The notes below the pieces were generated by a model that was not told the DNA's origin, made no database searches, and was given only the letters and a program-made list of their open reading frames with translations. DNA of 64,000 nucleotides from a virus: positions 1-64,000 of the IMG/VR virus record IMGVR_UViG_3300010412_000002. The stretch is one strand, 5' to 3'. A program made the position numbers and the translations under genes. The stretch's first letter is position 1. Every line of letters begins with the position of its first letter. Below are positions 3,877-58,085 of the stretch, piece by piece.

Positions 3877-4117
3877 TGATTCTTCCTTTGAGTATGTATT
3901 TTCCTAGCGTTGTTGTGCTCGTTCCGATACTGTTTGCAATATCAGATAACGACCATCTTGTCCGGAGCTGAAACTCATCTGCTATTTTTGCCAAGTCTAC
4001 ATAATTCCCATGGAAAAAGCAGCGTTGCATAGCATCAAGTGTTAGCTCCATCCTCTCCTGATATGACATCAGATAGGGAAGTTTCTCCCCCACTGGGATA
4101 GTGATGGTATTTGCCAT
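3869..4117 (-). CDS. Small helix-turn-helix protein
   Basis: An 82-aa protein whose C-terminal part (WSLSDIANSIGTSTTTLGKY) reads as a helix-turn-helix of the kind found in sigma-like and homeodomain-like DNA-binding proteins. It could regulate the replication genes it sits among. The start is ATG at 4117 (MANTITIP); a later ATG at 4069 would shorten its overlap with the primase 3' end (to 4035). It overlaps the uracil-DNA glycosylase start by 8 nt, suggesting coupled translation. Confidence 0.6.
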   Translation of the reverse strand: MANTITIPVGEKLPYLMSYQERMELTLDAMQRCFFHGNYVDLAKIADEFQLRTRWSLSDIANSIGTSTTTLGKYILKGRING

Positions 4118-5081
4118 TAGCAATCATTTTATCTATTAATTCCTTGGTAGCCTCTCTACCATATTTTGCATGAAAGTCAGAGATATCTTTAACTCCGTAT
4201 TTCTTAGGTATAAGCAGGTAAGGAATATCAAGTTCTTTGCTTCGTAATTCCGAACTTCTAATGCCCACCTCATCATTATCATAGAGCAAAAACGCTTGAT
4301 CGTGGGTCATTAGAAGGGCACGGAATTTCGGAGTGTTTATCCGAACAGTTTCAGAGCTAGGAGCAGTAGAAGTGTAGCCGAGCGAAAGGAGGACCAATGC
4401 GTCCTTTGCCGACTTTGTGATAATAAGGGTATCTCCCAGGAAGGGTAGTCGATCATAGAAGGCGGCGTCTTCCCTTTTTGCGAAAGATAACCACCGACTA
4501 CTCTTTCGAGTTTCCCTAGGACGATAATACTTAGCAGCTGGAAGTCCATATGGTAAACGATAGATTGGATTTCCCTCAGCATATTCCCAACGAAGCTTTC
4601 CATTTATATAAACAGTTTTGACGGATTGAATTCCGTAGTGAAGTAAAAGCTCTTTTGTAATACCGTATTGATTCCAGTATTCTAGGTCTTCAGGTGTAAA
4701 GTCTTGTTCTTCAAATGTTACTTCACGAACACGTTTAATATCTTTCTGCTTCTCTACAGCTTCCTCTACTTTAGCTGTATTTAGTTCGACTTTAAAATCT
4801 TTTTCAATTAGTCGGATAGCTTGCCAAAAACTTATTCCGTACTTTTCCATAACTACTGCAAAGCAATCATAAGTTTTTTCTTTTGCATAATCGTAAAAAT
4901 ATAATCTACCAGTTTTTTGACTTCTTGCAAAAGTACAACCTGGGTGCTTGTCATTTCGTAATGGATTTGTTACTTGTCCTTTATAATCAGGATCTCGATC
5001 GAGGTAGTGCTTAAATATAGCCTCTTCACCTATACGATCTAGAAGATACTTTTTATAAAATCTTGACCATTCATTATTCAT
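4035..5081 (-). CDS. DnaG-type DNA primase
   Basis: A 348-aa TOPRIM primase. The N-terminal 110 residues resemble a degenerate CHC2 domain (NPLRNDKHPGCTF, then LYFYDYAKEKTYDCFAVV) without the full cysteine set. The TOPRIM core is seen as TLIITKSAKDALVLLSLGY, with the Glu replaced by Lys in the first motif, and AFLLYDNDEVGI giving the D-N-D metal-binding motif. It makes primers for the DnaB-like helicase and PolA encoded nearby. ATG 5081 (MNNEWSRF) is chosen: upstream in-frame codons would run through a strong hairpin (5095-5124). Confidence 0.85.
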   Translation of the reverse strand: MNNEWSRFYKKYLLDRIGEEAIFKHYLDRDPDYKGQVTNPLRNDKHPGCTFARSQKTGRLYFYDYAKEKTYDCFAVVMEKYGISFWQAIRLIEKDFKVELNTAKVEEAVEKQKDIKRVREVTFEEQDFTPEDLEYWNQYGITKELLLHYGIQSVKTVYINGKLRWEYAEGNPIYRLPYGLPAAKYYRPRETRKSSRWLSFAKREDAAFYDRLPFLGDTLIITKSAKDALVLLSLGYTSTAPSSETVRINTPKFRALLMTHDQAFLLYDNDEVGIRSSELRSKELDIPYLLIPKKYGVKDISDFHAKYGREATKELIDKMIANGKYHHYPSGGETSLSDVISGEDGANT

Positions 5082-5094
5082 GTTTTCGTTTTGT

Positions 5095-5124
5095 GGGGGA
5101 GCAGGCGACTTTTCACCTGCCCCC
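5095..5124 (-). promoter_or_regulatory. GC-rich hairpin in front of primase start
   Basis: A stem of ten base pairs (GGGGG + GCAGG with CCTGC + CCCC, one bulge) and a 10-nt loop, 14 nt upstream of the primase ATG. No T-run follows on the minus strand, so it is more likely an mRNA 5' stabiliser, processing site or attenuator than a simple terminator. It belongs to a recurring class of pre-start hairpins in this window. Confidence 0.55.
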
Positions 5125-5991
5125 AACGCTTATTTTGCTACCACTTTGGTCCTCTTTTTCGTGTAAATCAGACACGATATTAGGACTATAAACGAGTGGG
5201 AGTATCAGAGTTAACAGATTAAAATAATGTTTGTAAAACATATGTACTGAGATGATACTGGGGACACAACCAATATTTCCCTCATGATCACAAGCTATTT
5301 CTCAGGTATTCAAGAGATGTAAAAGATCAGATGAGTTACTAAGTCATCTGACAACGGGAGTAAGAACATTATCTTCTTGCAACCAGAGGTCTCCAGCCTA
5401 CCATTCACATAACTATTCCACCCAATTAATCACTTGGTCTTTATACATAAGGCATTGGGGCGCTAAGCCAATTGCACTTTACATTCATCTTAATATCGCA
5501 GACTTACTTTAGGAGTGTGGTATCCAGTACCAAGCTGCTTTTGAATTCGTACCGTTAGAATTCATACACATCACTGCTTTAGCTAGCTTACGCTATCTGC
5601 TTTTTAACGAAGTCTTATCAATACATTGGACCAATGTATTAACAGTGTGTATCATACTATATCTCCATACGGGTAATGTAAGACCTCCCTGGCATATCGG
5701 GTGTATGCATAGGCGCGTATGTTTGTGATATAATATGCCTAGTCTCTGTGTTCTAAGACAGAGGTTCTTCGCTTAGATTAAATACATTTCAATATAGCAT
5801 TCCAGACGGCCATACTATAAGTGAGCATTACGCCAAACAGGCGATATGAACGTGTTCCGAGCAAACCAAAACAGTTCCTTTATTCTCTCTGTATTTAATT
5901 CCAGTAGTAGTATCACACTCTATCTACAATATCTGTCTCTCGCTTGGGGCGAGACTTGATATCCCACGCTCAATTGCGATTTACGTAATAG
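5125..5991 (-). ncRNA. Gene-free, hairpin-rich locus; candidate large structured RNA or origin
   Basis: About 870 bp between the SSB-like gene and the primase hold no open frame that I can support, in a genome otherwise packed without gaps. Many short inverted repeats are visible: CAGATGA/TCATCTG (5328-5350), GAATTC/GAATTC (5543-5563), a 21-bp palindrome (5620-5640), CTCTGT/ACAGAG (5744-5763), CGCC/GGCG (5831-5843) and TCTCGC/GCGAGA (5938-5954). This density suggests folded RNA in the size class of GOLLD or ROOL RNAs, or alternatively the replication origin. Strand is assumed from the neighbouring genes. Confidence 0.4.
5620..5640. repeat. Perfect 21-bp palindrome
   Basis: AATACATTGG and CCAATGTATT flank a single central A, giving a ten-pair inverted repeat with almost no loop. 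As DNA it could bind a dimeric protein or be an origin element; as RNA it could be a hairpin or a dimerisation site. It is the strongest inverted repeat in the gene-free locus. Confidence 0.75.
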
Positions 5992-6546
5992 TTAGAACAG
6001 TGTGAAAGAATCTCCTGTTGCAGGCTTATTCTCCTTCGGCTTCATGGCTTTTAACTCGTAAGTCGAATACTTCAACGTAGGAGGGAGATCTGAACGATAC
6101 CGCTCGGCATATGGGGCGAAGCGAGGGAATTCAGACCAGCTGGGTTCGTCCTTATGCTGGACTAGCTTCAGATTGATCGGATATACGCCACCATTTTTTA
6201 GTGCGTCAACCGTCAACTTGGCTACATCCCCATATCCGCTCACGTTATCCGGGAGTTCGGCATCAGTGGATGAGACAACATACTGCAGGAGCAATTTGGA
6301 CTTGTCGCTTACAGAACGCTGATATGCATCTTCCCTAGTCTCTCCATCTTTCGGATAGACATATTTGTCGTCCGGATCGAAGATACGATCCTTCTTAGTC
6401 CTCCCAAACGAATCAGTTAGAAGAATATCTACAAAGTTTGTTCCTCGGTCGGCCCCAGAGATAGACACATTGCTGTGAATACCTGCCGGGATCGTCGTAC
6501 CACCACCTTTAATCTGGTTAACTTGTTCTTTCAGATTAATACTCAT
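5992..6546 (-). CDS. Putative single-stranded DNA-binding protein
   Basis: A 184-aa soluble protein. The call rests on context (next to a Sak4-like ATPase, helicase, primase), on a beta-rich middle compatible with an OB fold (IHSNVSISGADRGTNFVDILLTD), and on a short C-terminal tail ending in GDSFTLF, reminiscent of SSB tails, although it is not strongly acidic. No diagnostic motif exists for phage SSBs by eye. The ATG at 6546 is 2 nt from the upstream gene's stop at 6549. Confidence 0.4.
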   Translation of the reverse strand: MSINLKEQVNQIKGGGTTIPAGIHSNVSISGADRGTNFVDILLTDSFGRTKKDRIFDPDDKYVYPKDGETREDAYQRSVSDKSKLLLQYVVSSTDAELPDNVSGYGDVAKLTVDALKNGGVYPINLKLVQHKDEPSWSEFPRFAPYAERYRSDLPPTLKYSTYELKAMKPKENKPATGDSFTLF

Positions 6547-7220: not shown

Positions 7221-8218
7221 TATATTTCTTCGCTTTTATTTTTATAGTCTAGCACACGGGAATGTGCGAAATCTTCTACCATCATTAAGACAGATGGTAG
7301 ACCCCCTCTACTTTTTAGCACATGCCAATAGATCATACTTTTACTCGGATCTCTCGGGTGCTTAGCGGGTAGCCCTGCTGGAAACTTTTCTCCTACTCCA
7401 TAGGAAGTGATACCAAGAGTAGAAGGATTATGTGTTACTATCACATAGTCTGATGAAAAGAAAATGGCAGACGCTCCAAAAAGATCACTACGTTGTGGAA
7501 AATGTAACTTCGGATTCAAAATTCGTTCTTTGTCTTCGATATCTCGGTTCAACTGCGATAACAATATAAATAAGATTTTCATATCGTCATGGTCAAACTG
7601 CTTTTTGATCTCGATGCACATCTCATACAAGGATTGTAGAGTAGAACGTTCTGATTCCCCCTGTTTTCCTCTTGTTAGAAGTACGTGGTCTAACGTTACA
7701 ATTAGTCCCTTATTGGACTCTTTGATCCTTTGCTCTTCAGCAAACTGCAGGATCGTCTCTCGAATATCATCCACAGTACCCATATTATCCACGTAGAATA
7801 TAGGGTATCTTCCAACACTATCAGCGATCTCTTTCACTTGTTTCATCTCCTCCTCTTCTAACGGGTCCTCCGCACCAAACAGCTTACGAGTGCTGATTTC
7901 CATCTTACCGGAAATGGTACGTGCGATTTGATCAGTAGAAAGCATCTCAAATTCAAACGACAATATGACGAAATCTTCATCCGGATTACAGTCAACAAAA
8001 TCTCTTTTCCACTGTTCAGCAATCATGGACTTACCAGATCCTGATAATCCCGCTAAAGTTACAATTTTATTCCACTCAAAGCCATTAAGAGTAATCCTAT
8101 TTAGCTTCTCGTGAGAGACCTTTAAGGAGCGATATCTGCCGTATCTTCGCCCTTCGATGTAGTCAATAGTCTTCTTCGCAGCATGGCTTATGTGCCGATA
8201 TTGCAATTTAGATGACAT
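7220..8218 (-). CDS. DnaB-type replicative helicase (RecA-fold part)
   Basis: A 332-aa helicase lacking the usual DnaB N-terminal collar domain. Walker A GLSGSGKS is at residues 57-64, the following FVILSFEFEM matches the DnaB motif with its conserved Glu, Walker B is LIVTLDH, and ILLSQLNRD carries the Gln sensor motif (motif 3). It would unwind DNA as a hexamer, moving 5'-3' as DnaB does. The upstream gene overlaps it by 11 nt and may encode its loader or its missing N-terminal partner. Confidence 0.85.
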   Translation of the reverse strand: MSSKLQYRHISHAAKKTIDYIEGRRYGRYRSLKVSHEKLNRITLNGFEWNKIVTLAGLSGSGKSMIAEQWKRDFVDCNPDEDFVILSFEFEMLSTDQIARTISGKMEISTRKLFGAEDPLEEEEMKQVKEIADSVGRYPIFYVDNMGTVDDIRETILQFAEEQRIKESNKGLIVTLDHVLLTRGKQGESERSTLQSLYEMCIEIKKQFDHDDMKILFILLSQLNRDIEDKERILNPKLHFPQRSDLFGASAIFFSSDYVIVTHNPSTLGITSYGVGEKFPAGLPAKHPRDPSKSMIYWHVLKSRGGLPSVLMMVEDFAHSRVLDYKNKSEEI

Positions 8219-8792
8219 CTACGTCAAATTTAGGACTGTTATCTTGGCGATCTTCCCATAGAAGAAAGTCGCGATCACGTAGCCAACGTAGCGAATTTTT
8301 CATATACGTTAGCCTATTTTCACTTATAGAAGACATTTTAACTTCTTCTAGCTGCTTCTCCAATCCTCTAATAATATCTGATACTGAATACCCTTCAGAA
8401 ATAATATTAGCGAATTCAACCTTGCAGCGTTTTTTGTTATCCTTTAGGGATCTGGTGCCTGGAAAATGATTAACTTTATCCGTAGCCGGAAATACTTTCC
8501 AGAATTTTTCAAAATCTTCCTCTAGTTGGATATCTATTGGAAGAGATGATTCAGTGTCAATAATTGATGAGATGTATTGTCTGCCTTTATTGGTAAGACT
8601 ACTTGCCTCATCAATATATCCACTAAGTTGCAGTTCAGTTCGAATTTTTTCTGGGAAATACCTAGTAAATCCCTTTCCTTCAAACTTAGATAGTAGGAAC
8701 ATTGCATGTCCCATAGGTAATTCTCCTGCAATCATGTTGATTATATAGTCTTTATGGAGGAGAATTGAATCACTTGTAAGCATTACTCTCAT
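8208..8792 (-). CDS. Putative replication protein linked to helicase
   Basis: A 194-aa protein. Residues 1-75 look like a winged-helix region (LQLSGYIDEASSLTNKGRQY). The second part (FEKFWKVFPATDKVNHFPGTRSL) resembles proteins seen next to DnaB-like helicases in other phages. Tight coupling on both sides (ATGA overlap with the upstream Zn protein, 11-nt overlap with the helicase) supports a shared role, such as helicase loading. I cannot name a family with certainty. Confidence 0.45.
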   Translation of the reverse strand: MRVMLTSDSILLHKDYIINMIAGELPMGHAMFLLSKFEGKGFTRYFPEKIRTELQLSGYIDEASSLTNKGRQYISSIIDTESSLPIDIQLEEDFEKFWKVFPATDKVNHFPGTRSLKDNKKRCKVEFANIISEGYSVSDIIRGLEKQLEEVKMSSISENRLTYMKNSLRWLRDRDFLLWEDRQDNSPKFDVDVI

Positions 8793-11878: not shown

Positions 11879-11918
11879 GTCGATTGGATTAAGTGAACAA
11901 TCTCTTTAACAGGGGAAG

Positions 11919-13853
11919 TTAATGGACCCAGTGATCAGTTATCACAGGAGTTGCCTCCATAGGAATGTGCGTACAAAATAATCTGCCTGATTCTTCCATA
12001 CACCATTTTATTTTCTTAGCAACTTCCGGAGCTAAGTTCCTATCACATTCTATTACAATCTCATCATGTACAATGTTGACGATCATGACCTTGTCCCAAA
12101 GATCATTCTCTTGTACATACCTCCTAAAGAGGATTGAAGCGTACTTCGTCATGCTCGCCCCAGTACCTTGAATTGGGTAATTCTGAGCTTCTCTCTCTAT
12201 CTTTCCTAGACTCGAGTAGAATCGGCTCCAAAAATACTTGGGGATTTCGTACCCTCGACTCTTATAGTAGTCGATTAGATCTTTATAATAGATGTACTCG
12301 GTATATTCAGGTGGGTAATAGCGACGTTTGGTAACCGGATCAGTTACGATATAACCATTCTCACGAACGAACAGTTTAACCTTGTTGAAATATGGCTTTA
12401 ATCCAGGAAAAGTTTCAAACCAACGATTTATAAAATCGCGAGCCTCTTCCAACGGGACTCCAAAGTCTTTTGCTAATTTATACTCACTCATACCGTAAGG
12501 AATTCCAAAATTTAGACGTTTTGCATAGAACCTTAGATCAGTATTGACATCTTTGCTCACCTCTACTCCATACATACGGGAGGCGGTGAAGGAATGAGGA
12601 TCACCCCCTTTATTATTAAAAAAGTCAATCATGGCAGGGTCGTTGGCCAAATCGCCCATAATTCTAGTTTCCTGAGCAGCGTAGTCAGTCACTACAAGGA
12701 CGTTACTTTGGCTTGCTGGCACAAAGCACTTTCTGTAATCACTATCCCGCTTTATGTTCTGCAGATTCGGAGAAGTAGAACTCATCCGACCTGTATTTAA
12801 GATTTGATTGTAGTTTGAATGCACCCGCCCAGTGCTAGGGTGGATATTAGACAGGAACTTGCTGCCGTAAGTATTCAAGCTCTTCTGATACTCTTTCATT
12901 GTTAAATACAACTTAACGAATGGAAAGCGCTCTGAGTGTTGCTCGATGTTTGTTCGCTGAACACTGTCTTTGTAAACAGGTTCACTAGATAATTTCGACT
13001 TTTCTTTATCAAGGATTTGAATGGGAATCCCAATTTCCTTAAACAGGGCCCCAACTTGCTTAGAAGAATTCCAATTTATTCCAATATAGTCATCCAATCT
13101 ATTATCTAACAACCATTGATTCAAAATTTTCAAGGCCTCAGCGAGTTTCTCTTCAACTTCTAGTCTAATTTCGTCCCACAATCGCGGGTCTAAATAGAAA
13201 CCATTAGTTTCGATATCGCCTAGTACAAGTGAATACTCGTTCTCAAGCCGGGCACAAGTGGTTTGATCCGTTTCTTGCAAAAGAACTTCTTGTGCGCGAT
13301 TAATCTGTAGCGGTAAAACTACGTCATAAGCCCCATATAGAATATGGGAGGGCGAGAACTCTGAATCATTTAGAGTTGAAAACTCTTTACGAATATCCTT
13401 ACTCAGAGTTTCCTCAAAGAGAGAAAGCTGATTAGAATAGCTGAAAGTTGTATAGCGTTGGGACAGAACTTCTAGAGAGGCTTTTCCTGGTTTTCCGCCG
13501 AGTAAGATGCGTTCCTGAAGAAAACAATCCTTAATATTTTCGAGTCTAATTCCTAGACGAACGAGGAATTCATAATCAAACTTTCCATTTACCATAACTT
13601 TTGTCACCTCTTGGCTCTCCAATATGCCTTTCAAAGGCGATAGATCTTGGTACCTGGCGTCAATGATAAATTGATTAAGTTCATCACCTATCTGCAGCAT
13701 GATTATTGAATCCACTAGAGGGTCAAGACCTGTTGTTTCAGTGTCTAACCCCACAATCTTTGTAGGACTGGAATTTATGTAATCCAAGACCTCGTTTATG
13801 GTCGCCGCGTGGAAATCTCCTACTCTGTACGGCGCAACAAGATGTATTGTCAT
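11919..13853 (-). CDS. polA: DNA polymerase I (family A) with 3'-5' exonuclease
   Basis: A 644-aa replicative polymerase. The exonuclease domain begins with GLDTETTGLD (Asp37, Glu39). The polymerase palm and fingers carry motif A DYAAQETRIMGDLA (Asp present), motif B RFYAKRLNFGIPYGM (an R...K...NFG..YG helix) and motif C IVHDEIVIE (His-Asp-Glu). No 5' nuclease domain is present, as usual for phage PolA. All catalytic residues seen appear intact. The start is coupled to the upstream gene by an ATGA overlap (13850-13853). It replicates the phage genome. Confidence 0.95.
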   Translation of the reverse strand: MTIHLVAPYRVGDFHAATINEVLDYINSSPTKIVGLDTETTGLDPLVDSIIMLQIGDELNQFIIDARYQDLSPLKGILESQEVTKVMVNGKFDYEFLVRLGIRLENIKDCFLQERILLGGKPGKASLEVLSQRYTTFSYSNQLSLFEETLSKDIRKEFSTLNDSEFSPSHILYGAYDVVLPLQINRAQEVLLQETDQTTCARLENEYSLVLGDIETNGFYLDPRLWDEIRLEVEEKLAEALKILNQWLLDNRLDDYIGINWNSSKQVGALFKEIGIPIQILDKEKSKLSSEPVYKDSVQRTNIEQHSERFPFVKLYLTMKEYQKSLNTYGSKFLSNIHPSTGRVHSNYNQILNTGRMSSTSPNLQNIKRDSDYRKCFVPASQSNVLVVTDYAAQETRIMGDLANDPAMIDFFNNKGGDPHSFTASRMYGVEVSKDVNTDLRFYAKRLNFGIPYGMSEYKLAKDFGVPLEEARDFINRWFETFPGLKPYFNKVKLFVRENGYIVTDPVTKRRYYPPEYTEYIYYKDLIDYYKSRGYEIPKYFWSRFYSSLGKIEREAQNYPIQGTGASMTKYASILFRRYVQENDLWDKVMIVNIVHDEIVIECDRNLAPEVAKKIKWCMEESGRLFCTHIPMEATPVITDHWVH

Positions 13854-18758: not shown

Positions 18759-19562
18759 TTACTTCGGTCTTGTAATGTTAAGTTTATCGCCCGGTTTGAT
18801 CCAGTTCAGATCTCTGCTCCTGTTAAGAGACTTGAGTTCTCCTGGCTTCATACCGAACCGTTTGCGGATGTCTGAAGCAGTGTCTCCGGACTGTACTTCA
18901 TACACGTCTTTAACACGTACCTCGTTACTGGAATTTCCACAGCTAGTACCGTCGGTTAGGCCTAATTCCTTTGCAACTGCTTCGTTCAAGGCATAATTAG
19001 TTCCCATCCAAGAGATGGCTACGATGCGATCACCTTGTTTGGTGACTTGAGGATTGGATACCTCATACATTTCATCGTGCACCTGGATTTGGGACACTTG
19101 TCCATTGACCACCAACGCAATTGTTGATTCGCCTTTTTGGATCATGCCATTTTTCACAATGCAGTTGAACAGAATTACCGACCCACCTTGTGGAACCGAA
19201 ATTTCGGATTGCTGCGGTGGCGCTGGATGCGTCTGCGAGGTTACCGGGGTAGGCGTACTCGTCGGAGCTTGCTGTACAGCAGGTTGCGCAGGCTGTGACA
19301 CGACTTGCGTCGTTGAATCAGCTACTAAACCTTGCGGCGGCTGCACCGGGGCTCTGCTTCGTCCACACCAGGAAAAGACGGTGATGAACAACAGCAAGAG
19401 CACAACTCCTATTACACCGATACGTATCCAGGATTTCCATGACGCTTTTCCTGCGTCATCATTGGGATCATCATTGTTATCAGAAGAATCATCATCGGCA
19501 TAGCCGTCATCATCTTCTTCTAACAAGTCATCCGGTGGACTCGGAAGCTTGGGTTCTCCCAT
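18759..19562 (-). CDS. Membrane protein with C-terminal LysM domain
   Basis: A 267-aa protein in four parts: an acidic N-terminus of 45 residues with Asp/Glu runs; one membrane segment (about 46-66, IRIGVIGVVLLLLFITVFSW); a Pro/Gln/Thr-rich spacer (about 72-122); and a C-terminal LysM module (about 220-267, VYEVQSGDTASDIRKRFGM ... IKPGDKLNI). LysM binds peptidoglycan glycans, so the protein probably spans the inner membrane and holds the wall. Its GC content and codon choice are higher than those of neighbours, suggesting strong expression. Confidence 0.8.
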   Translation of the reverse strand: MGEPKLPSPPDDLLEEDDDGYADDDSSDNNDDPNDDAGKASWKSWIRIGVIGVVLLLLFITVFSWCGRSRAPVQPPQGLVADSTTQVVSQPAQPAVQQAPTSTPTPVTSQTHPAPPQQSEISVPQGGSVILFNCIVKNGMIQKGESTIALVVNGQVSQIQVHDEMYEVSNPQVTKQGDRIVAISWMGTNYALNEAVAKELGLTDGTSCGNSSNEVRVKDVYEVQSGDTASDIRKRFGMKPGELKSLNRSRDLNWIKPGDKLNITRPK

Positions 19563-19565
19563 AGG

Positions 19566-20120
19566 TCACTGTTTGTGGATTGATTTAATTACCGCATCTA
19601 AAGTGTACGCCCTGTTGGTTGCCTTTATCCCCATATGATCTACTGCAAACATATATAATGCCGCTCGACCTTCCGGAGTTAAGAAGTAATCTGCAGGGTT
19701 TTCACATTTAGATGTGATATGACTGTAATGTATCATAAACTTCTTTCCAATACTAGGTGTTTGAAAAGCAGCCATGAGTTGGTTGAATATCTGTGCCTGG
19801 ATACTTGCAGTACCAGGTTTAGAATATTTATAAAAGTATTCTCGCAGTCCTAGAACAATACGCTCATTTGCATGATTGTTAGGACTAGTGATTCTGTAGT
19901 ATGCAACATCGCGTAACAAAGCAGAGCGAAAATAAGCTATGTTGTAGCGATTTCCGCTAATTGCTCTGAACAATAGGTGTGGGGTAGATTTTTCCACATG
20001 ATGTGGAATAGGGCCAAATCCCCTCCCTACTTCCAGTATTGTATCGAATTCGCCAATAGCACGTTGCCCTGATGGCACTTCTTGAATGACAATCACGGGC
20101 TTTATCTGCTCAAAGTGCAT
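19566..20120 (-). CDS. Hypothetical protein, 184 aa
   Basis: ATG 20120 (MHFEQIKP), 2 nt from the upstream stop. NRYNIAYFRSALLR resembles a segment in the gene at 16069-16590, and both have a similar C-terminal block, which suggests a shared origin. Basic and soluble. Function unknown. Confidence 0.5.
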   Translation of the reverse strand: MHFEQIKPVIVIQEVPSGQRAIGEFDTILEVGRGFGPIPHHVEKSTPHLLFRAISGNRYNIAYFRSALLRDVAYYRITSPNNHANERIVLGLREYFYKYSKPGTASIQAQIFNQLMAAFQTPSIGKKFMIHYSHITSKCENPADYFLTPEGRAALYMFAVDHMGIKATNRAYTLDAVIKSIHKQ

Positions 20121-20730: not shown

Positions 20731-20750
20731 GGGGGGATTTTACTCCCCCC
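20731..20750 (-). promoter_or_regulatory. GC-rich hairpin before gene start
   Basis: A perfect seven-pair stem GGGGGGA/TCCCCCC with a 6-nt loop, 12 nt upstream of the ATG at 20718 and downstream of the tRNA-like sequence. No T-run follows. The remaining intergenic bases to 20851 hold no gene that I can see. Confidence 0.55.
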
Positions 20751-25019: not shown

Positions 25020-25618
25020 AACTGCGATCGAAATTTACGGTGTTCCTCTACGATATATTTCGAGAGGATTTCCTCCAGCTGTTCTCTGGGTAGATTTTTG
25101 TCTAGGGGGTAAGTTTGTTCAAGACTATCAGCTAAGATAGCTTGTTGCTGCGCTGTGAGTTTCGGTGCAGCGTAGTTACAGTACCCCACTTTCCCTGTTG
25201 CTGGATTGCTTTCGAAGTAAACTGTGTCTGTGCGGTACACCACTTCTACCTCGCCTGTATTGAGATAATAAGTGAAGTCCGCACGTCGGCGGTAAATGGC
25301 TTTTTCTGTAGCAGGTGGACAAAGCGCTTTTACGCGTTTTACCACAATACTGTCTACAATGCCTTGTGAGCCCACAATAAACTTGCTTTCTTCCTGGAAG
25401 TCTTCAACAATGTTGTAAACCTCTGTGGTAACTTCATCCTTAAGAGGAATGAAGTGCAGTACTGCGGTAATTCCGGCATCTAGCCATTTTTCTGGGATAA
25501 GTACCCCAATGATGATTAAGGAGATGAAGATGAAGCCCATATAGTAGGCGAATCTTATGATCCCCCGTACTAGCTTGACTCCATCTTTTGCCATCTCCTT
25601 CAGTAGTGGTTCAGTCAT
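25016..25618 (-). CDS. Single-pass membrane protein, 200 aa
   Basis: One membrane segment near the N-terminus (about 24-42, YMGFIFISLIIIGVLI), then a 150-residue domain probably exposed outside the inner membrane, ending in a charged helix. Coupled on both sides (8-nt overlap with the glucosaminidase gene, ATGA with the next). It may be a partner of the wall hydrolases. Function unknown. Confidence 0.6.
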   Translation of the reverse strand: MTEPLLKEMAKDGVKLVRGIIRFAYYMGFIFISLIIIGVLIPEKWLDAGITAVLHFIPLKDEVTTEVYNIVEDFQEESKFIVGSQGIVDSIVVKRVKALCPPATEKAIYRRRADFTYYLNTGEVEVVYRTDTVYFESNPATGKVGYCNYAAPKLTAQQQAILADSLEQTYPLDKNLPREQLEEILSKYIVEEHRKFRSQL

Positions 25619-26378
25619 TCGTGACTGCGTGTTGGTAAATGATTAGCCCGAGGCCAAAGATCTGTAGCTCGATGTCGCTCATTCCATGAAGCGTTTCCGC
25701 CAAATGGAACTTGTTCTCGAGTGCTATCAGTTTGTTGGCATATTCAGGATCGCTGGCATAACCAGCGGCTTTAACTGCTCGGGCTAGCTCTTTAAAGTTC
25801 TTTACTTTACGGAAGCGTTTTTGATACCGTTCCTTTTTGAGAACTTTGCCGTGGTCGTAGTAACCCTCTTCTGTGGTTGAGTATACCCGGAAATGATCAT
25901 CTGGGTGATCGTCTTTATAATTGACGCATTTACCCGCGGCTTCACATTTCCTGTGGTCACGTTTTCCGTTGGGAAGTTTTCCCGACCCAAAGCATTTGAT
26001 TCCGAAATGGTTATTGTACTTGTTCGACAGCTTACTTCCACCTTTTGCTGCCCCGCTTTCAAGTAGTCCTTGATACAGGGTGAGAGTGATATCGGTGCCA
26101 TTGACTTTGTAGTCATTATAAGCTGCGGTAAAGTTGCCAACTATGTATTTTAGCTGGTTTTGTTCCCCTTCGTTGAGGAATCCAGTTCCTGTCCAGGCAC
26201 CCGTTTCTGCCCCCCACACATATTCACGTGCTTGAATGTGAGCTTTGGTATGAACCTCCCATCCATTCAAGATGTTCGGTTCTTCGTGGTAGGTGCCAAT
26301 TGCAGCCATGTTGATAATAACCATACCAAACAGTAACAACAGGGGAGTTGTCAGTTTGGACAAAAGAATCTTTTTCAT
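25611..26378 (-). CDS. Glucosaminidase (GH73-like) with signal sequence, copy 2
   Basis: A 255-aa protein. The N-terminus (KKILLSKLTTPLLLLFGMVI) is a signal peptide or anchor. The catalytic domain shows TLYQGLLESGAAKG with the key Glu, NKYNNHFGIKCF, and a C-terminal FKELARAVKAAGYASDPEYA stretch typical of FlgJ/GH73 enzymes in Bacteroidota phages. It should cut glycan strands. It is the second such enzyme in 4 kb and is longer than copy 1. Confidence 0.85.
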   Translation of the reverse strand: MKKILLSKLTTPLLLLFGMVIINMAAIGTYHEEPNILNGWEVHTKAHIQAREYVWGAETGAWTGTGFLNEGEQNQLKYIVGNFTAAYNDYKVNGTDITLTLYQGLLESGAAKGGSKLSNKYNNHFGIKCFGSGKLPNGKRDHRKCEAAGKCVNYKDDHPDDHFRVYSTTEEGYYDHGKVLKKERYQKRFRKVKNFKELARAVKAAGYASDPEYANKLIALENKFHLAETLHGMSDIELQIFGLGLIIYQHAVTND

Positions 26379-30150: not shown

Positions 30151-30420
30151 TTAATCTTCCATGAGCAGTTCAATAAGATACCACTCTTTGTAGCTTATAG
30201 GGTTATCGGATAAAGAAAATGGCAAATCTTCTTCCGTTACTTCAAGTTCCTGCACATCAAAAATTAGATATGCCTCATCTTTTACGATTAAAAAGGTGTC
30301 TATTTCTTTCTTTTGCCTACGAAAGAATACAAAATGTACGTCGTTCTTTATGGCTGCAATTAGCCATAAATTAGTGGGGGGAGACCCTTGAGTCTCCCCA
30401 TCCACTGCTTTACCCGTCAT
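30151..30420 (-). CDS. Hypothetical protein, 89 aa
   Basis: ATG 30420 is in an ATGA overlap with the upstream stop, so it is the likely start even though a strong hairpin (30374-30405) then lies within codons 6-16. The C-terminus is acidic (FDVQELEVTEEDLPFSLSD). No family recognised. Confidence 0.5.
   Translation of the reverse strand: MTGKAVDGETQGSPPTNLWLIAAIKNDVHFVFFRRQKKEIDTFLIVKDEAYLIFDVQELEVTEEDLPFSLSDNPISYKEWYLIELLMED
30374..30405 (-). promoter_or_regulatory. GC-rich hairpin inside the start of a gene
   Basis: GTGG + GGGGAGAC paired with GTCTCCCC + CCAC, loop of six. It has the shape of the pre-start hairpins elsewhere, but here the likely ATG (30420) lies before it, so it may act on mRNA decay or on translation. 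Confidence 0.5.
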
Positions 30421-31007
30421 CGCTGCTTCATTACAGGTTTTACCCAATCGTAGTTATGGGGTACAATTATGAATTGTTCCCCACGGTAACTCGAGTCAGG
30501 TATGGGCAATAAAAATTGTGGGCCATAAGCCCACTTGCCAGTAAGAGTGTCTCCTTCAACGAGGTAGCCGTACGCGTTCGTATCCCAGCCAAAATATGTG
30601 GGCTCACCGTGCGGTAATATTTCTCCTCGGTAGACATCCGGGGTAGTTTCCGTGGCGTATATGATCGGTAGTAACATACCCGATCTCGCCTGATCGGTTT
30701 TTGGAGGATCCACGATCACTTTTTCCGCCGTTGGAACGTAATCGAGAATCGCAGTGTACGGATTCCCCGGTATGGCAAAAACTTGTTGCCCTTGGTAAAA
30801 TACCACCTCATAAGGCGCCAATATCTTGATGTCCTCATTGGTCTCCATCGAGACACCGCGATAGACTACAAAAACATAAGGGCCATCGTAGATGATAGTT
30901 TGAAATCCTGCGACTTTACCCTGGGCAATTCCACGATTATGCGCCAAAAGCATTGTCAGAAGCAGCAAGAGAAGGGTTGCTAAAAACCCGAAGATGTTGT
31001 TCCTCAT
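30417..31007 (-). CDS. Secreted or anchored protein, 196 aa
   Basis: An N-terminal hydrophobic segment (about 5-22, IFGFLATLLLLLLTMLLA) followed by a long, Pro/Tyr-rich, beta-type domain. It may be a signal-anchored periplasmic protein. Coupled to the next gene by ATGA. Function unknown. Confidence 0.6.
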   Translation of the reverse strand: MRNNIFGFLATLLLLLLTMLLAHNRGIAQGKVAGFQTIIYDGPYVFVVYRGVSMETNEDIKILAPYEVVFYQGQQVFAIPGNPYTAILDYVPTAEKVIVDPPKTDQARSGMLLPIIYATETTPDVYRGEILPHGEPTYFGWDTNAYGYLVEGDTLTGKWAYGPQFLLPIPDSSYRGEQFIIVPHNYDWVKPVMKQR

Positions 31008-32100: not shown

Positions 32101-32148
32101 AGAGAGCACTAGGGGGCTCCGGGGAGGATCACCCCCTAGCAGACTCTC
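32101..32148 (-). promoter_or_regulatory. Long GC-rich hairpin before gene start
   Basis: Outer stem AGAG/CTCT and inner stem CTAGGGGG/CCCCCTAG (32109-32116 with 32132-32139), 30 nt before ATG 32070. The spacer to the ATG is A-rich on the coding strand, and no T-run follows. Confidence 0.6.
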
Positions 32149-34930: not shown

Positions 34931-34958
34931 TTTCTTAGAGATTGGTTTTGATTTAATT

Positions 34959-34984
34959 GGGGAGACGACCTAAATCGTCCCCCC
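34959..34984 (-). promoter_or_regulatory. GC-rich hairpin before gene start
   Basis: GGGG-A-GACGA/TCGTC-CCCC with a 6-nt loop, 28 nt before ATG 34930. Followed on the minus strand by the leader AATTAAATCAAAACC. Confidence 0.6.
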
Positions 34985-35003
34985 TGAGCGACATGGGATT
35001 GGT

Positions 35004-35438
35004 CTATTCCATGCCACTCTGCCCAAACACGGTGAGCTCAATGCAGTGCATGAGCATCATCCGCTCCAATTTTGCAATTCGCCCCAGACGGAAATGGCTA
35101 CGGGCGTATTTTATCGACCTGCGGTATCTTCTCACAATCCGATGATCTCCCGGGTAGTTTGCTGCCATGTACATGCCAAGCATTGAGGTTTGATATTCCT
35201 TGATGTGTGCAGTTACGTAGTTTGCGATTTGCTGTTCCCGGATCATGCCAAGTTCTTGCATCCTGTCTACCAAACGGGTAGACAAAATGAGCATTGCATC
35301 TGGGTAATAGAACAGTTCCAGGAATTTGTCGGTTGGAGCAAAAGATAGACGTCTTTCTGTTTGATAAAAGACATCCAGATTCGCGCTTTCATTAAACAAG
35401 CGCGTTTCATACGAAGACAATGCGATTATATTGGCCAT
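35004..35438 (-). CDS. Hypothetical protein, 144 aa
   Basis: ATG 35438 (MANIIALSS) is preferred because it follows the hairpin and the shared leader; an in-frame ATG at 35525 in an ATGA overlap with the upstream stop would add 29 residues running through the hairpin. The C-terminus is basic (IVRRYRRSIKYARSHFRLGR). Helix-rich. Function unknown. Confidence 0.5.
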   Translation of the reverse strand: MANIIALSSYETRLFNESANLDVFYQTERRLSFAPTDKFLELFYYPDAMLILSTRLVDRMQELGMIREQQIANYVTAHIKEYQTSMLGMYMAANYPGDHRIVRRYRRSIKYARSHFRLGRIAKLERMMLMHCIELTVFGQSGME

Positions 35439-45014: not shown

Positions 45015-46646
45015 ATGGCTAAAGATGTAACATTCGCTCCACTAGCGGAACTAAAAATAGGAGTAGACATTATTGCTGATGCAGTAAAGTCCACACTAGG
45101 TCCTAAAGGGCGAAATGTAGTTTTGCGTACAAACTATAAAAAGAACGCACCTCACGTCACTAAGGATGGGGTAACGGTTGCCAAAGAAATTGAATTGGCT
45201 GATCCTGTACAGGATGTCGCCGTACAGCTTGTAAAACAGGCCGCAGATAAAACCGCCCAACTTGCTGGGGATGGTACGACTACCGCCACAGTACTGACAC
45301 AAGCAATTTTTAATGAGGGATATAAATTTATCAATGCAGGAGTATCTCCTACAGATCTTCGCAAAGGCATTGAAGAGGCCGCAGAGATTGTTCAAGATTT
45401 TATTGATCAGCAGGCTGTAACACTGGATCTCGAAAAAGAAGAAGACAGACTGAAAGTATTTCAGATCGCTTCACTTTCTGCTAATAATGATGAAAAGGTA
45501 GGGAGTTTAGTAACTGAAGCCACACTGAAAGCTACACTTGACGGCGTGATCGCCATAGAAGATTCAAACACCGCTGAATCATATATTGAGCACCTAGAAG
45601 GTTACTCATTTGATAGGGGATATATCTCACCTCATTTTATTACCGACTCTGAACGTAATGAAGTTGTTTATGAAAATCCATACATCTTTCTATATAATGG
45701 GAAGATTCGCGATATCAATGATATGGCCTCGGTGGCAGAAGAAGTTGCTACTAAAGGAAACAAACAACCACTTCTAGTTATTGCTGATGAGATCGAAGGC
45801 CAAGCTATCCAGTTTCTCGTAGTAAATAAAGTACGAGGAGGATTCCCGCTGGTAGCAGTAAAGGCTCCGTCTTTTGGGGATCGTAGACGTAAGATGCTCG
45901 AAGATATTGCAGTAGCTACTAATGGTGTTGTGATCTCAGATGAGATTGGAGTGCACATTAAGGAAGCAACTATTGAATATTTTGGGAGAGCAGATAAAGT
46001 CGTAATCACTAGTGATAATACTTCTATCATTGGTGGCCATGGAGACAAACGAGAGATTCAGCAGCGAATTGAAGAAATCAAGGCTGAAAAAACTCGTGCT
46101 AAATATGACTGGGAAGCACAGCAACTACAAGAACGTTTAGCTAAACTTGTTGGTGGTGTGTCAGTGATTAGAGTTGGCGCAATTACTGAGCCAGAACTGA
46201 AAGAGAAAAAAGATCGAATTGATGATTCCTTGAATGCTGCTAGATCCGCTATTAAAGGTGGTATTGTACCTGGTGGCGGGTCTATTTTTCTACGGGCGCA
46301 TGATCACTTAATCGAACGGGGACTCCCTAACGATGAATCAAAATTTGGGTATCAATGCCTACTAAATGCCCTAACTTCGCCTTTTTACACTATATGTAGT
46401 AATGCAGGACAATCCGGAGAAAGGTATAGAGGCATGATTGAGTACGATAAATGGCAGGTATATAATGCTGCTACAAATCGAATTGAAGACGCCCTTTCAT
46501 CTGGAATTATTGATCCAGCATTAGTATGCAAGGTTGCACTTGCAAATGCTGCATCAATTGCTACCCTACTCTTAAACACATCAGTTACAATTACCAATGA
46601 TAGCAACGAGCTAGATTTGTCTCAAGCCCCAATGTCACCACTATGA
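45015..46646 (+). CDS. groEL: Chaperonin GroEL (phage-encoded)
   Basis: A 543-aa full-length chaperonin. KGRNVVL, GDGTTTATVLTQAI (ATP-binding, with catalytic Asp), and the C-terminal GGIVPGGGSIF and IIDPALVCKVALANAASIA blocks align with the equatorial domain; the middle holds intermediate and apical domains including RRKMLEDIA. The usual GGM-repeat tail is missing (it ends LDLSQAPMSPL). A phage GroEL next to the capsid genes probably folds a virion or replication protein. ATGA-coupled to the next gene. Confidence 0.95.
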   Translation: MAKDVTFAPLAELKIGVDIIADAVKSTLGPKGRNVVLRTNYKKNAPHVTKDGVTVAKEIELADPVQDVAVQLVKQAADKTAQLAGDGTTTATVLTQAIFNEGYKFINAGVSPTDLRKGIEEAAEIVQDFIDQQAVTLDLEKEEDRLKVFQIASLSANNDEKVGSLVTEATLKATLDGVIAIEDSNTAESYIEHLEGYSFDRGYISPHFITDSERNEVVYENPYIFLYNGKIRDINDMASVAEEVATKGNKQPLLVIADEIEGQAIQFLVVNKVRGGFPLVAVKAPSFGDRRRKMLEDIAVATNGVVISDEIGVHIKEATIEYFGRADKVVITSDNTSIIGGHGDKREIQQRIEEIKAEKTRAKYDWEAQQLQERLAKLVGGVSVIRVGAITEPELKEKKDRIDDSLNAARSAIKGGIVPGGGSIFLRAHDHLIERGLPNDESKFGYQCLLNALTSPFYTICSNAGQSGERYRGMIEYDKWQVYNAATNRIEDALSSGIIDPALVCKVALANAASIATLLLNTSVTITNDSNELDLSQAPMSPL

Positions 46647-58023: not shown

Positions 58024-58043
58024 TCTAATTATATAAGTAGGGA

Positions 58044-58061
58044 AGGGGGAGCAATCCCCCT
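58044..58061 (+). promoter_or_regulatory. GC-rich hairpin between structural genes
   Basis: AGGGGGA/TCCCCCT with a 4-nt loop, 25 nt before the next ATG (58086). It is the same kind of pre-start hairpin as seen on the minus strand. Confidence 0.6.
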
Positions 58062-58085
58062 GCTCTATTATTAAACGTAACAATC

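Follow-up and report, generated by a model that had tools for sequence, protein, structure and literature searches.

A noncoding orphan locus between an SSB-like gene and the primase gene of a crAss-like phage

Why does a phage record that is about 96% open reading frame leave 865 bp of its replication block without a gene? The window that we analysed is taken from the start of a virus record of 106,629 bp and covers its first 64 kb; judged from its gene content, the record belongs to a crAss-like phage: the markers include the primase (phrog_12622), a Sak4-like protein, a DnaB-type helicase and a family A DNA polymerase, along with uracil-DNA glycosylase, the large terminase and the major head protein. 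As originally predicted from the bare DNA, the gap lies in the replication block with an SSB-like gene on one side and the primase gene on the other, both on the minus strand, and away from tRNAs, none of which was detected by ARAGORN within the 64-kb window. The start of the crAss-type DNA primase gene (4035-5081, minus strand; phrog_12622 DNA primase, E 9e-39) is taken as the ATG at 5081, and its tblastn matches in 136 phage records are below 60% identity in every one. The SSB-like gene (5992-6546, minus strand; 184 aa) is named from its position and acidic tail only: its product matched no family in Pfam or PHROGs, and is 16-21% identical to the same-position protein in five crAss-like phages. 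No defence-system protein family was found among eight genes near the gap. The phage also encodes a GroEL (45015-46646; phrog_5725, E 6.7e-142) 5' of its terminase gene, the same order as in Cellulophaga phage phi14:2 (Crassvirales), where GroEL is likewise upstream of terminase.

Extent, coding content and composition of the gap

When junctions were defined across all 106,629 bp of the record by greedily choosing ORFs of 60 aa or longer, the median of the 110 gaps was 1 bp and the six largest measured 865, 260, 252, 206, 201 and 195 bp, leaving the SSB-primase gap as the sole junction above 260 bp. The gene-free stretch of about 870 bp is thus real, and extends to 910 bp (5082-5991) if the primase starts at ATG 5081 rather than TTG 5126. 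Because the hairpin immediately upstream of the primase belongs to a genome-wide class that usually lies a short distance behind the previous stop codon, the noncoding insert is best drawn as 5127-5991, from the stop of the SSB-like gene to the primase leader hairpin, on the minus strand like the flanking genes.

No frame of the gap carries a coding signal. Under the standard code, its longest open stretches span 63 codons on the minus strand and 75 on the plus strand; recoding TAG, TGA or TAA one at a time yields frames of at most 147 codons, and a 255-codon frame arises on the antisense strand only if TAG and TGA are both recoded. We rejected an altered genetic code because TAA, TGA and TAG all serve as stops in this phage (48, 21 and 8 times, respectively, among ORFs of at least 150 aa). 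A hexamer coding score, derived from 64 of the phage's own ORFs and computed for the best of six frames in 120-base windows from one flanking gene to the other, averaged -0.065 in the gap vs 0.400 for the genome, and three-base periodicity was 0.51, compared with 1.22 at the 5th percentile of the genome. As for a decayed gene, a six-frame search against Pfam and PHROGs with stops read as X returned only hits with E >0.03, and tblastn with 12,825 stop-to-stop frames (at least 60 aa) from the loci retrieved for comparison gave 68 matches to the insert at E 0.01, where about 128 are expected by chance (primase control, 223 matches). A conserved protein, which the original prediction had itself named as evidence against it, thus turned up neither in the family search nor among the frames of relatives.

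In composition, the insert is native to the phage. Its G+C content is 0.390 vs 0.396 for the phage, and its dinucleotide distance is 0.081 vs a genome-window mean of 0.099, with 66% of windows at least as far; the insert therefore lacks the look of recent foreign DNA. These values bear on whether unrelated DNA was joined into the record during assembly, as might be suspected of a stretch known from one metagenomic record and carried by no relative. However, both G+C and dinucleotide make-up fit the phage, both borders fall between intact genes, and the stretch lacks the coding signal that most bacterial DNA would carry, making an artefact very improbable. The segment is noncoding, clean, co-directional with its neighbours and native in composition, and the gap is a genuine noncoding orphan locus of the replication operon, present in a single record.

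Inverted repeats, leader hairpin and fold energy

The locus had been described as hairpin-rich, with a density of stems recalling the large RNAs GOLLD and ROOL. Its most conspicuous repeat, a 21-bp palindrome at 5620-5640, has no mismatch between its 10-bp arms, which flank a single central base, and has no second copy in the record with up to four mismatches allowed; 7.8% of genome windows contain a perfect repeat whose arms measure 9 bases or more. An imperfect palindrome lies at 5327-5351 (perfect 8-bp outer arms, 9 bases between) and a further inverted repeat at 5542-5564 (perfect 7-bp arms, 9 bases between). Seven repeats with perfect arms of at least 6 bases and loops of at most 12 occur in the region, against a shuffle mean of 2.5, a count equalled by 7.8% of 115 genome windows, and three have arms of at least 12 bases with up to two mismatches, compared with 0.27 on average in shuffles and as many in 2.6% of genome windows; among these three is the primase leader hairpin, just outside the stretch first described. 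Inverted repeats are therefore about 3-12 times as frequent as in shuffles, yet 3-10% of genome windows reach the same number: the excess over shuffles stands and makes the label hairpin-rich weakly apt, but the genome itself often matches it. A density of stems recalling GOLLD and ROOL is not clearly above chance when set against shuffles and genome windows.

The leader hairpin is of a different kind. With its GGGG..CCCC stem at 5095-5124 (minus strand), 13 bases upstream of the primase ATG, it is, at -24 kcal/mol, the most stable 36-nt hairpin of the record and one of a class of GGGG..CCCC hairpins in the spaces before start codons of this genome; further minus-strand members lie near 210, 20748, 30399, 32135 and 34982, and a plus-strand member near 58045. 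Stems differ among the windows that contain them (178-213, 5092-5127, 20731-20748, 30373-30408, 32107-32142, 34951-34986 and 58036-58071), and the distance from the previous stop to the stem is mostly 18-34 bases, reaching 172 at 20748 and 869 at the primase. The class may perhaps comprise processing, terminator or message-protecting elements. Given that the insert is directly 5' of the primase, contains scattered promoter-like sites and ends at a hairpin that recurs at several other start sites, it could be read as a long regulatory leader of the primase and the genes behind it, containing a promoter or switch for phage transcription. However, the hairpins elsewhere mostly need only their 18-34 bases after the preceding stop, and promoter-like sites are no more frequent than after shuffling (a scan of 1.8 kb gave 6, vs a shuffle mean of 4.6, SD 2.1). 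We regard such a leader as distinctly unlikely.

Fold energy was equivocal. A first comparison with 20 shuffles gave the gap z values of -5.2 (minus strand) and -2.6 (plus strand), which with 60 shuffles of the same stretch became -2.2 and -2.5; gap and leader hairpin together, with 100 shuffles, gave -3.4 and -3.65. The excess is alike on both strands, and the one-strand excess expected of an RNA was not seen. In comparisons with a fixed SD, 3 of 42 other 910-nt genome windows scored below the minus strand of the region, and seven sense windows of the same gene block averaged -3.85 vs -4.09 for the region. Among 300-nt windows of the region, the sole standout was the end carrying the leader hairpin, while shuffling alone yielded a window as stable as its best 168-nt one in 45 of 100 cases on the minus strand and 36 of 100 on the plus strand, and 36 of the 39 sense windows of the gene block matched it. 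Ensemble diversity was 163, compared with 230 (SD 42) for shuffles and 153 (SD 34) for sense coding windows. The best-defined predicted RNA domain (5606-5773, minus strand) had z values of -4.65 on the minus and -1.63 on the plus strand (200 shuffles each), but because it was picked after the fold had been seen, its z is no test, and the domain is not above shuffles once that choice is allowed for. We consequently discounted both -5.2 for the gap, a small-sample effect, and -4.65 for the chosen domain, an effect of selection. As a side observation, the left gene block (1-37800) folds far beyond shuffles in minus-strand sense, with 300-nt z values down to -7.7 (e.g., at 25501-25800, 2101-2400 and 30301-30600).

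By the general criterion for structured RNAs, then, the fold of the gap is not clearly better than shuffles or the genomic background, coding windows of this genome folding at least as well, and the argument from hairpins fails against both. The controls indicate how such values are to be read: a phage permuted tmRNA stretch passed the 168-nt test, none of 60 shuffles of its own strand being as stable, but the noncoding gap of phage ICP1, which is discussed below, failed it (8 of 60 and 13 of 60). Because local energy separates the tmRNA from shuffles but not the ICP1 gap, single-sequence structure reading cannot settle such loci, and fold energy at the gap neither proves nor excludes an RNA.

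Equal fold energy on both strands, as would come from DNA palindromes, is also what a DNA element might produce, i.e., a replication origin or a protein-binding region whose palindromes are protein sites, and both the two palindromes and the position inside the replication block would suit it. However, cumulative GC skew is lowest at 35,151 and highest at 105,937, without a turn near 5.5 kb (a weak test, because skew follows gene direction), direct repeats are limited to two-copy repeats of 8-11 bases and form no iterons, there is no DnaA box, the long palindrome stands alone, and AT-richness is unremarkable, with 3.7% of windows equally rich. In addition, most relatives of the same gene order have only about 0-100 bp at this junction. 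The alternative of the original prediction, an origin of replication, accordingly found no backing in skew, repeats, boxes or base composition, and a DNA element of either kind is improbable.

The junction in relatives and searches for homologues

We compared 129 junction loci (85 of a main set, 15 of a second set, two others, phi14:2, three Oafivirinae and 23 from bacterial genome assemblies), which are not independent phages, some being near-identical and one (L313) having no upstream side. A comparable noncoding insert was present in none of these 129 related primase loci, two Oafivirinae having a shorter, unrelated one. The gap was at most 205 bp in 82 of the 85 loci of the main set, between -59 and 80 in all 15 of the second, 49 in phi14:2, and between -22 and 319 in the 22 usable loci of the 23 from bacterial assemblies. 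In a few relatives the junction is occupied by other material: a 375-aa frame with zinc-finger families (L020 3838-4962), which fills the junction provided that TAG encodes an amino acid; two genes plus 346 bp in cr125_1 (L005); and small ORFs in G016 (L172), where the primase has an internal TGA. In cr124_1, a 546-bp unannotated element (L006 4235-4780) is followed directly by two tRNA-Val, and the 631-bp space of cr7_1 contains an element 97% identical to it (L283 2334-2880), of which the 217-bp junctions of cr272_1 and cr273_1 hold a partial copy (parts of L284 and L285). This Oafivirinae element contains, in our own reading, a tRNA-like T-arm motif, and is similar at its 3' end to short noncoding stretches of Lactobacillus and Staphylococcus phages. 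Like the insert, it is an unannotated stretch leading from an SSB-like gene to the primase; unlike the insert, it is directly followed by tRNAs in cr124_1, and the two share no sequence likeness. The other junction contents showed no resemblance to the insert either, with L283-L285 entering the structure-model search only. Relatives by capsid protein, at 53-77% identity, do exist, and 4 of 17 such records contain a primase match; the closest long relative contig (G002, 82 kb) breaks off at its homologue of uracil-DNA glycosylase, beside the expected locus.

That this junction takes up a gene in L020, tRNAs and an element in cr124_1 and small ORFs in G016 suggests that it is prone to insertion, and the insert might be functionless spacer or passenger DNA, the result of an old insertion whose coding content has long been lost. 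The structure near chance and the lack of relatives would be in keeping with this origin. However, a record so packed that its next gap measures 260 bp should shed an idle 865 bp quickly, and six frames retain no protein remnant; we consider passenger DNA possible, if rather unlikely.

Relatives of the insert itself were sought by DNA searches in phages, plasmids, viral contigs and 5.6 Mb of retrieved loci, which gave nothing above chance, and a structure model of the 5606-5773 domain found no relative in 49 records and 60 sources (one being the window itself); the insert was thus seen in one record only. Individual matches were rejected: 19 bases in L315 lie inside a gene of an unrelated phage, 51 bases in an Enterococcus plasmid fall in the spacer before trpB (E 0.9), 31 bases in Pectobacterium phages have an E of 3, and weak matches in relatives are positioned in or among genes. 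The same holds for potential moved copies. The gap after the capsid gene of L107 looks like a gene with an in-frame TGA, the L020 gap is a TAG-recoded gene, several apparent gaps in G011 and G014 are long open frames skipped by ORF picking, and the true noncoding gaps in G011, G008 and G002 bear no likeness to the insert.

Known RNA families offered no better match. An Rfam scan of the 64-kb window returned no family at its cut-off, and the models of GOLLD, ROOL and OLE matched the locus neither at cut-off nor up to E 5 / E 10, so that membership in these classes is not borne out. Group I and group II introns were likewise without an Rfam match to E 5 / E 10, with no interrupted gene at the borders, and tmRNA was absent from a permissive Rfam scan of the locus. 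With permissive filters, only snoR104, cow-rumen-3 and Chlorobi-1 appeared, all at chance-level scores. The cow-rumen-3 match at the 3' end of the locus (16 bits vs a cut-off of 86.7; E 0.0158) was rejected because the family is matched elsewhere too, at E values of 1 or below: of 49 other phage records, 4 have such a match, as do 3 of the 14 control genomes, none of them over the cut-off.

A long untranslated RNA as the tentative reading

The closest parallel comes from ICP1, for which the published account (PMC7567579) describes an abundant noncoding transcript of about 800 nt, seen by RNA-seq in the space between gp139 and gp140, whose size its authors likened to GOLLD and ROOL. Subjected to the same tests as our locus, the ICP1 gap measures 1011 nt, with G+C of 0.396 and fold z values of -2.5 and -2.75, and has no Rfam family at cut-off. 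The two loci are alike in being ORF-less gaps of about 1 kb in tightly packed genomes (that of ICP1, a lytic phage), away from tRNAs, without an Rfam family at cut-off and with fold z near -2.5 on both strands; both thus leave roughly 0.8-1 kb of a densely coded phage genome free of ORFs. They differ in that the ICP1 transcript was detected by RNA-seq and lies beside the lysis cluster, whereas that of our locus is putative, and the two share no sequence likeness. GOLLD and ROOL resemble the insert in size and phage setting, but the insert matches neither in Rfam, and the tRNA neighbourhood common for GOLLD and ROOL was not found around it in the 64-kb window. On this locus, the titles and abstract openings of the crAss-like phage literature on noncoding RNA, transcriptomes and origins contain nothing.

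We tentatively favour, without regarding it as probable, the reading of the insert as a lineage-specific long untranslated RNA of the replication operon, similar to that of ICP1 and read from the minus strand, because it is the only large gap in a packed record, has no coding signal, is flanked by co-directional genes and is native in composition, because the ICP1 gap scores alike, and because the junction holds RNA genes in Oafivirinae. This reading is weakened by a fold at the level of chance, by the lack of relatives and of a clear promoter or terminator, and by the insert's occurrence in a single record. The original prediction of a new large structured RNA consequently survives in part: the locus is noncoding and a long RNA is its best reading, but its fold is not clearly above chance.

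What follows on how the segment is transcribed, processed and kept stable, and on its possible function, is inferred. The SSB-like gene, the segment of about 865 nt and the primase gene would be transcribed as one joint minus-strand message. The GGGG..CCCC hairpin and the A-rich leader may give the primase message a start of its own, either after cutting or by independent initiation, and the upstream segment might then persist as a stable RNA, as the one that ICP1 makes in large amount. GOLLD, ROOL and OLE are multimers, in part through palindromic kissing loops (PMC12286853), and if the segment is indeed RNA, we would speculate that the 21-nt palindrome could be a contact between copies, comparable to those loops. 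It is doubtful that the locus represents a new class of large noncoding RNA, confined to one crAss-like lineage and unrelated to GOLLD and ROOL, perhaps with a role in replication or with palindrome-mediated multimers. The ICP1 transcript, GOLLD and ROOL were all found in large ORF-less stretches of dense phage genomes; if the insert is RNA, a case from a crAss-like replication operon would tie such RNAs to a known process.

Other noncoding stretches emerged among the contigs retrieved for comparison. In L322 (G011), stretches of 404-699 nt (11904-12602, 13041-13444 and 19249-19665) surround the DNA polymerase gene of this relative and show no fold signal. In L325 (G008), an 892-nt noncoding stretch (4810-5701) with fold z values of -3.7 and -4.7 and no Rfam match lies about 3-4 kb before three tRNA genes, and on structural grounds is a stronger candidate for a large RNA than the locus described here. 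A related phage contig, L212, encodes a permuted tmRNA at 8224-8499 (RF04321, 66.9 bits, E 2e-10), next to a tRNA at 8142-8215.
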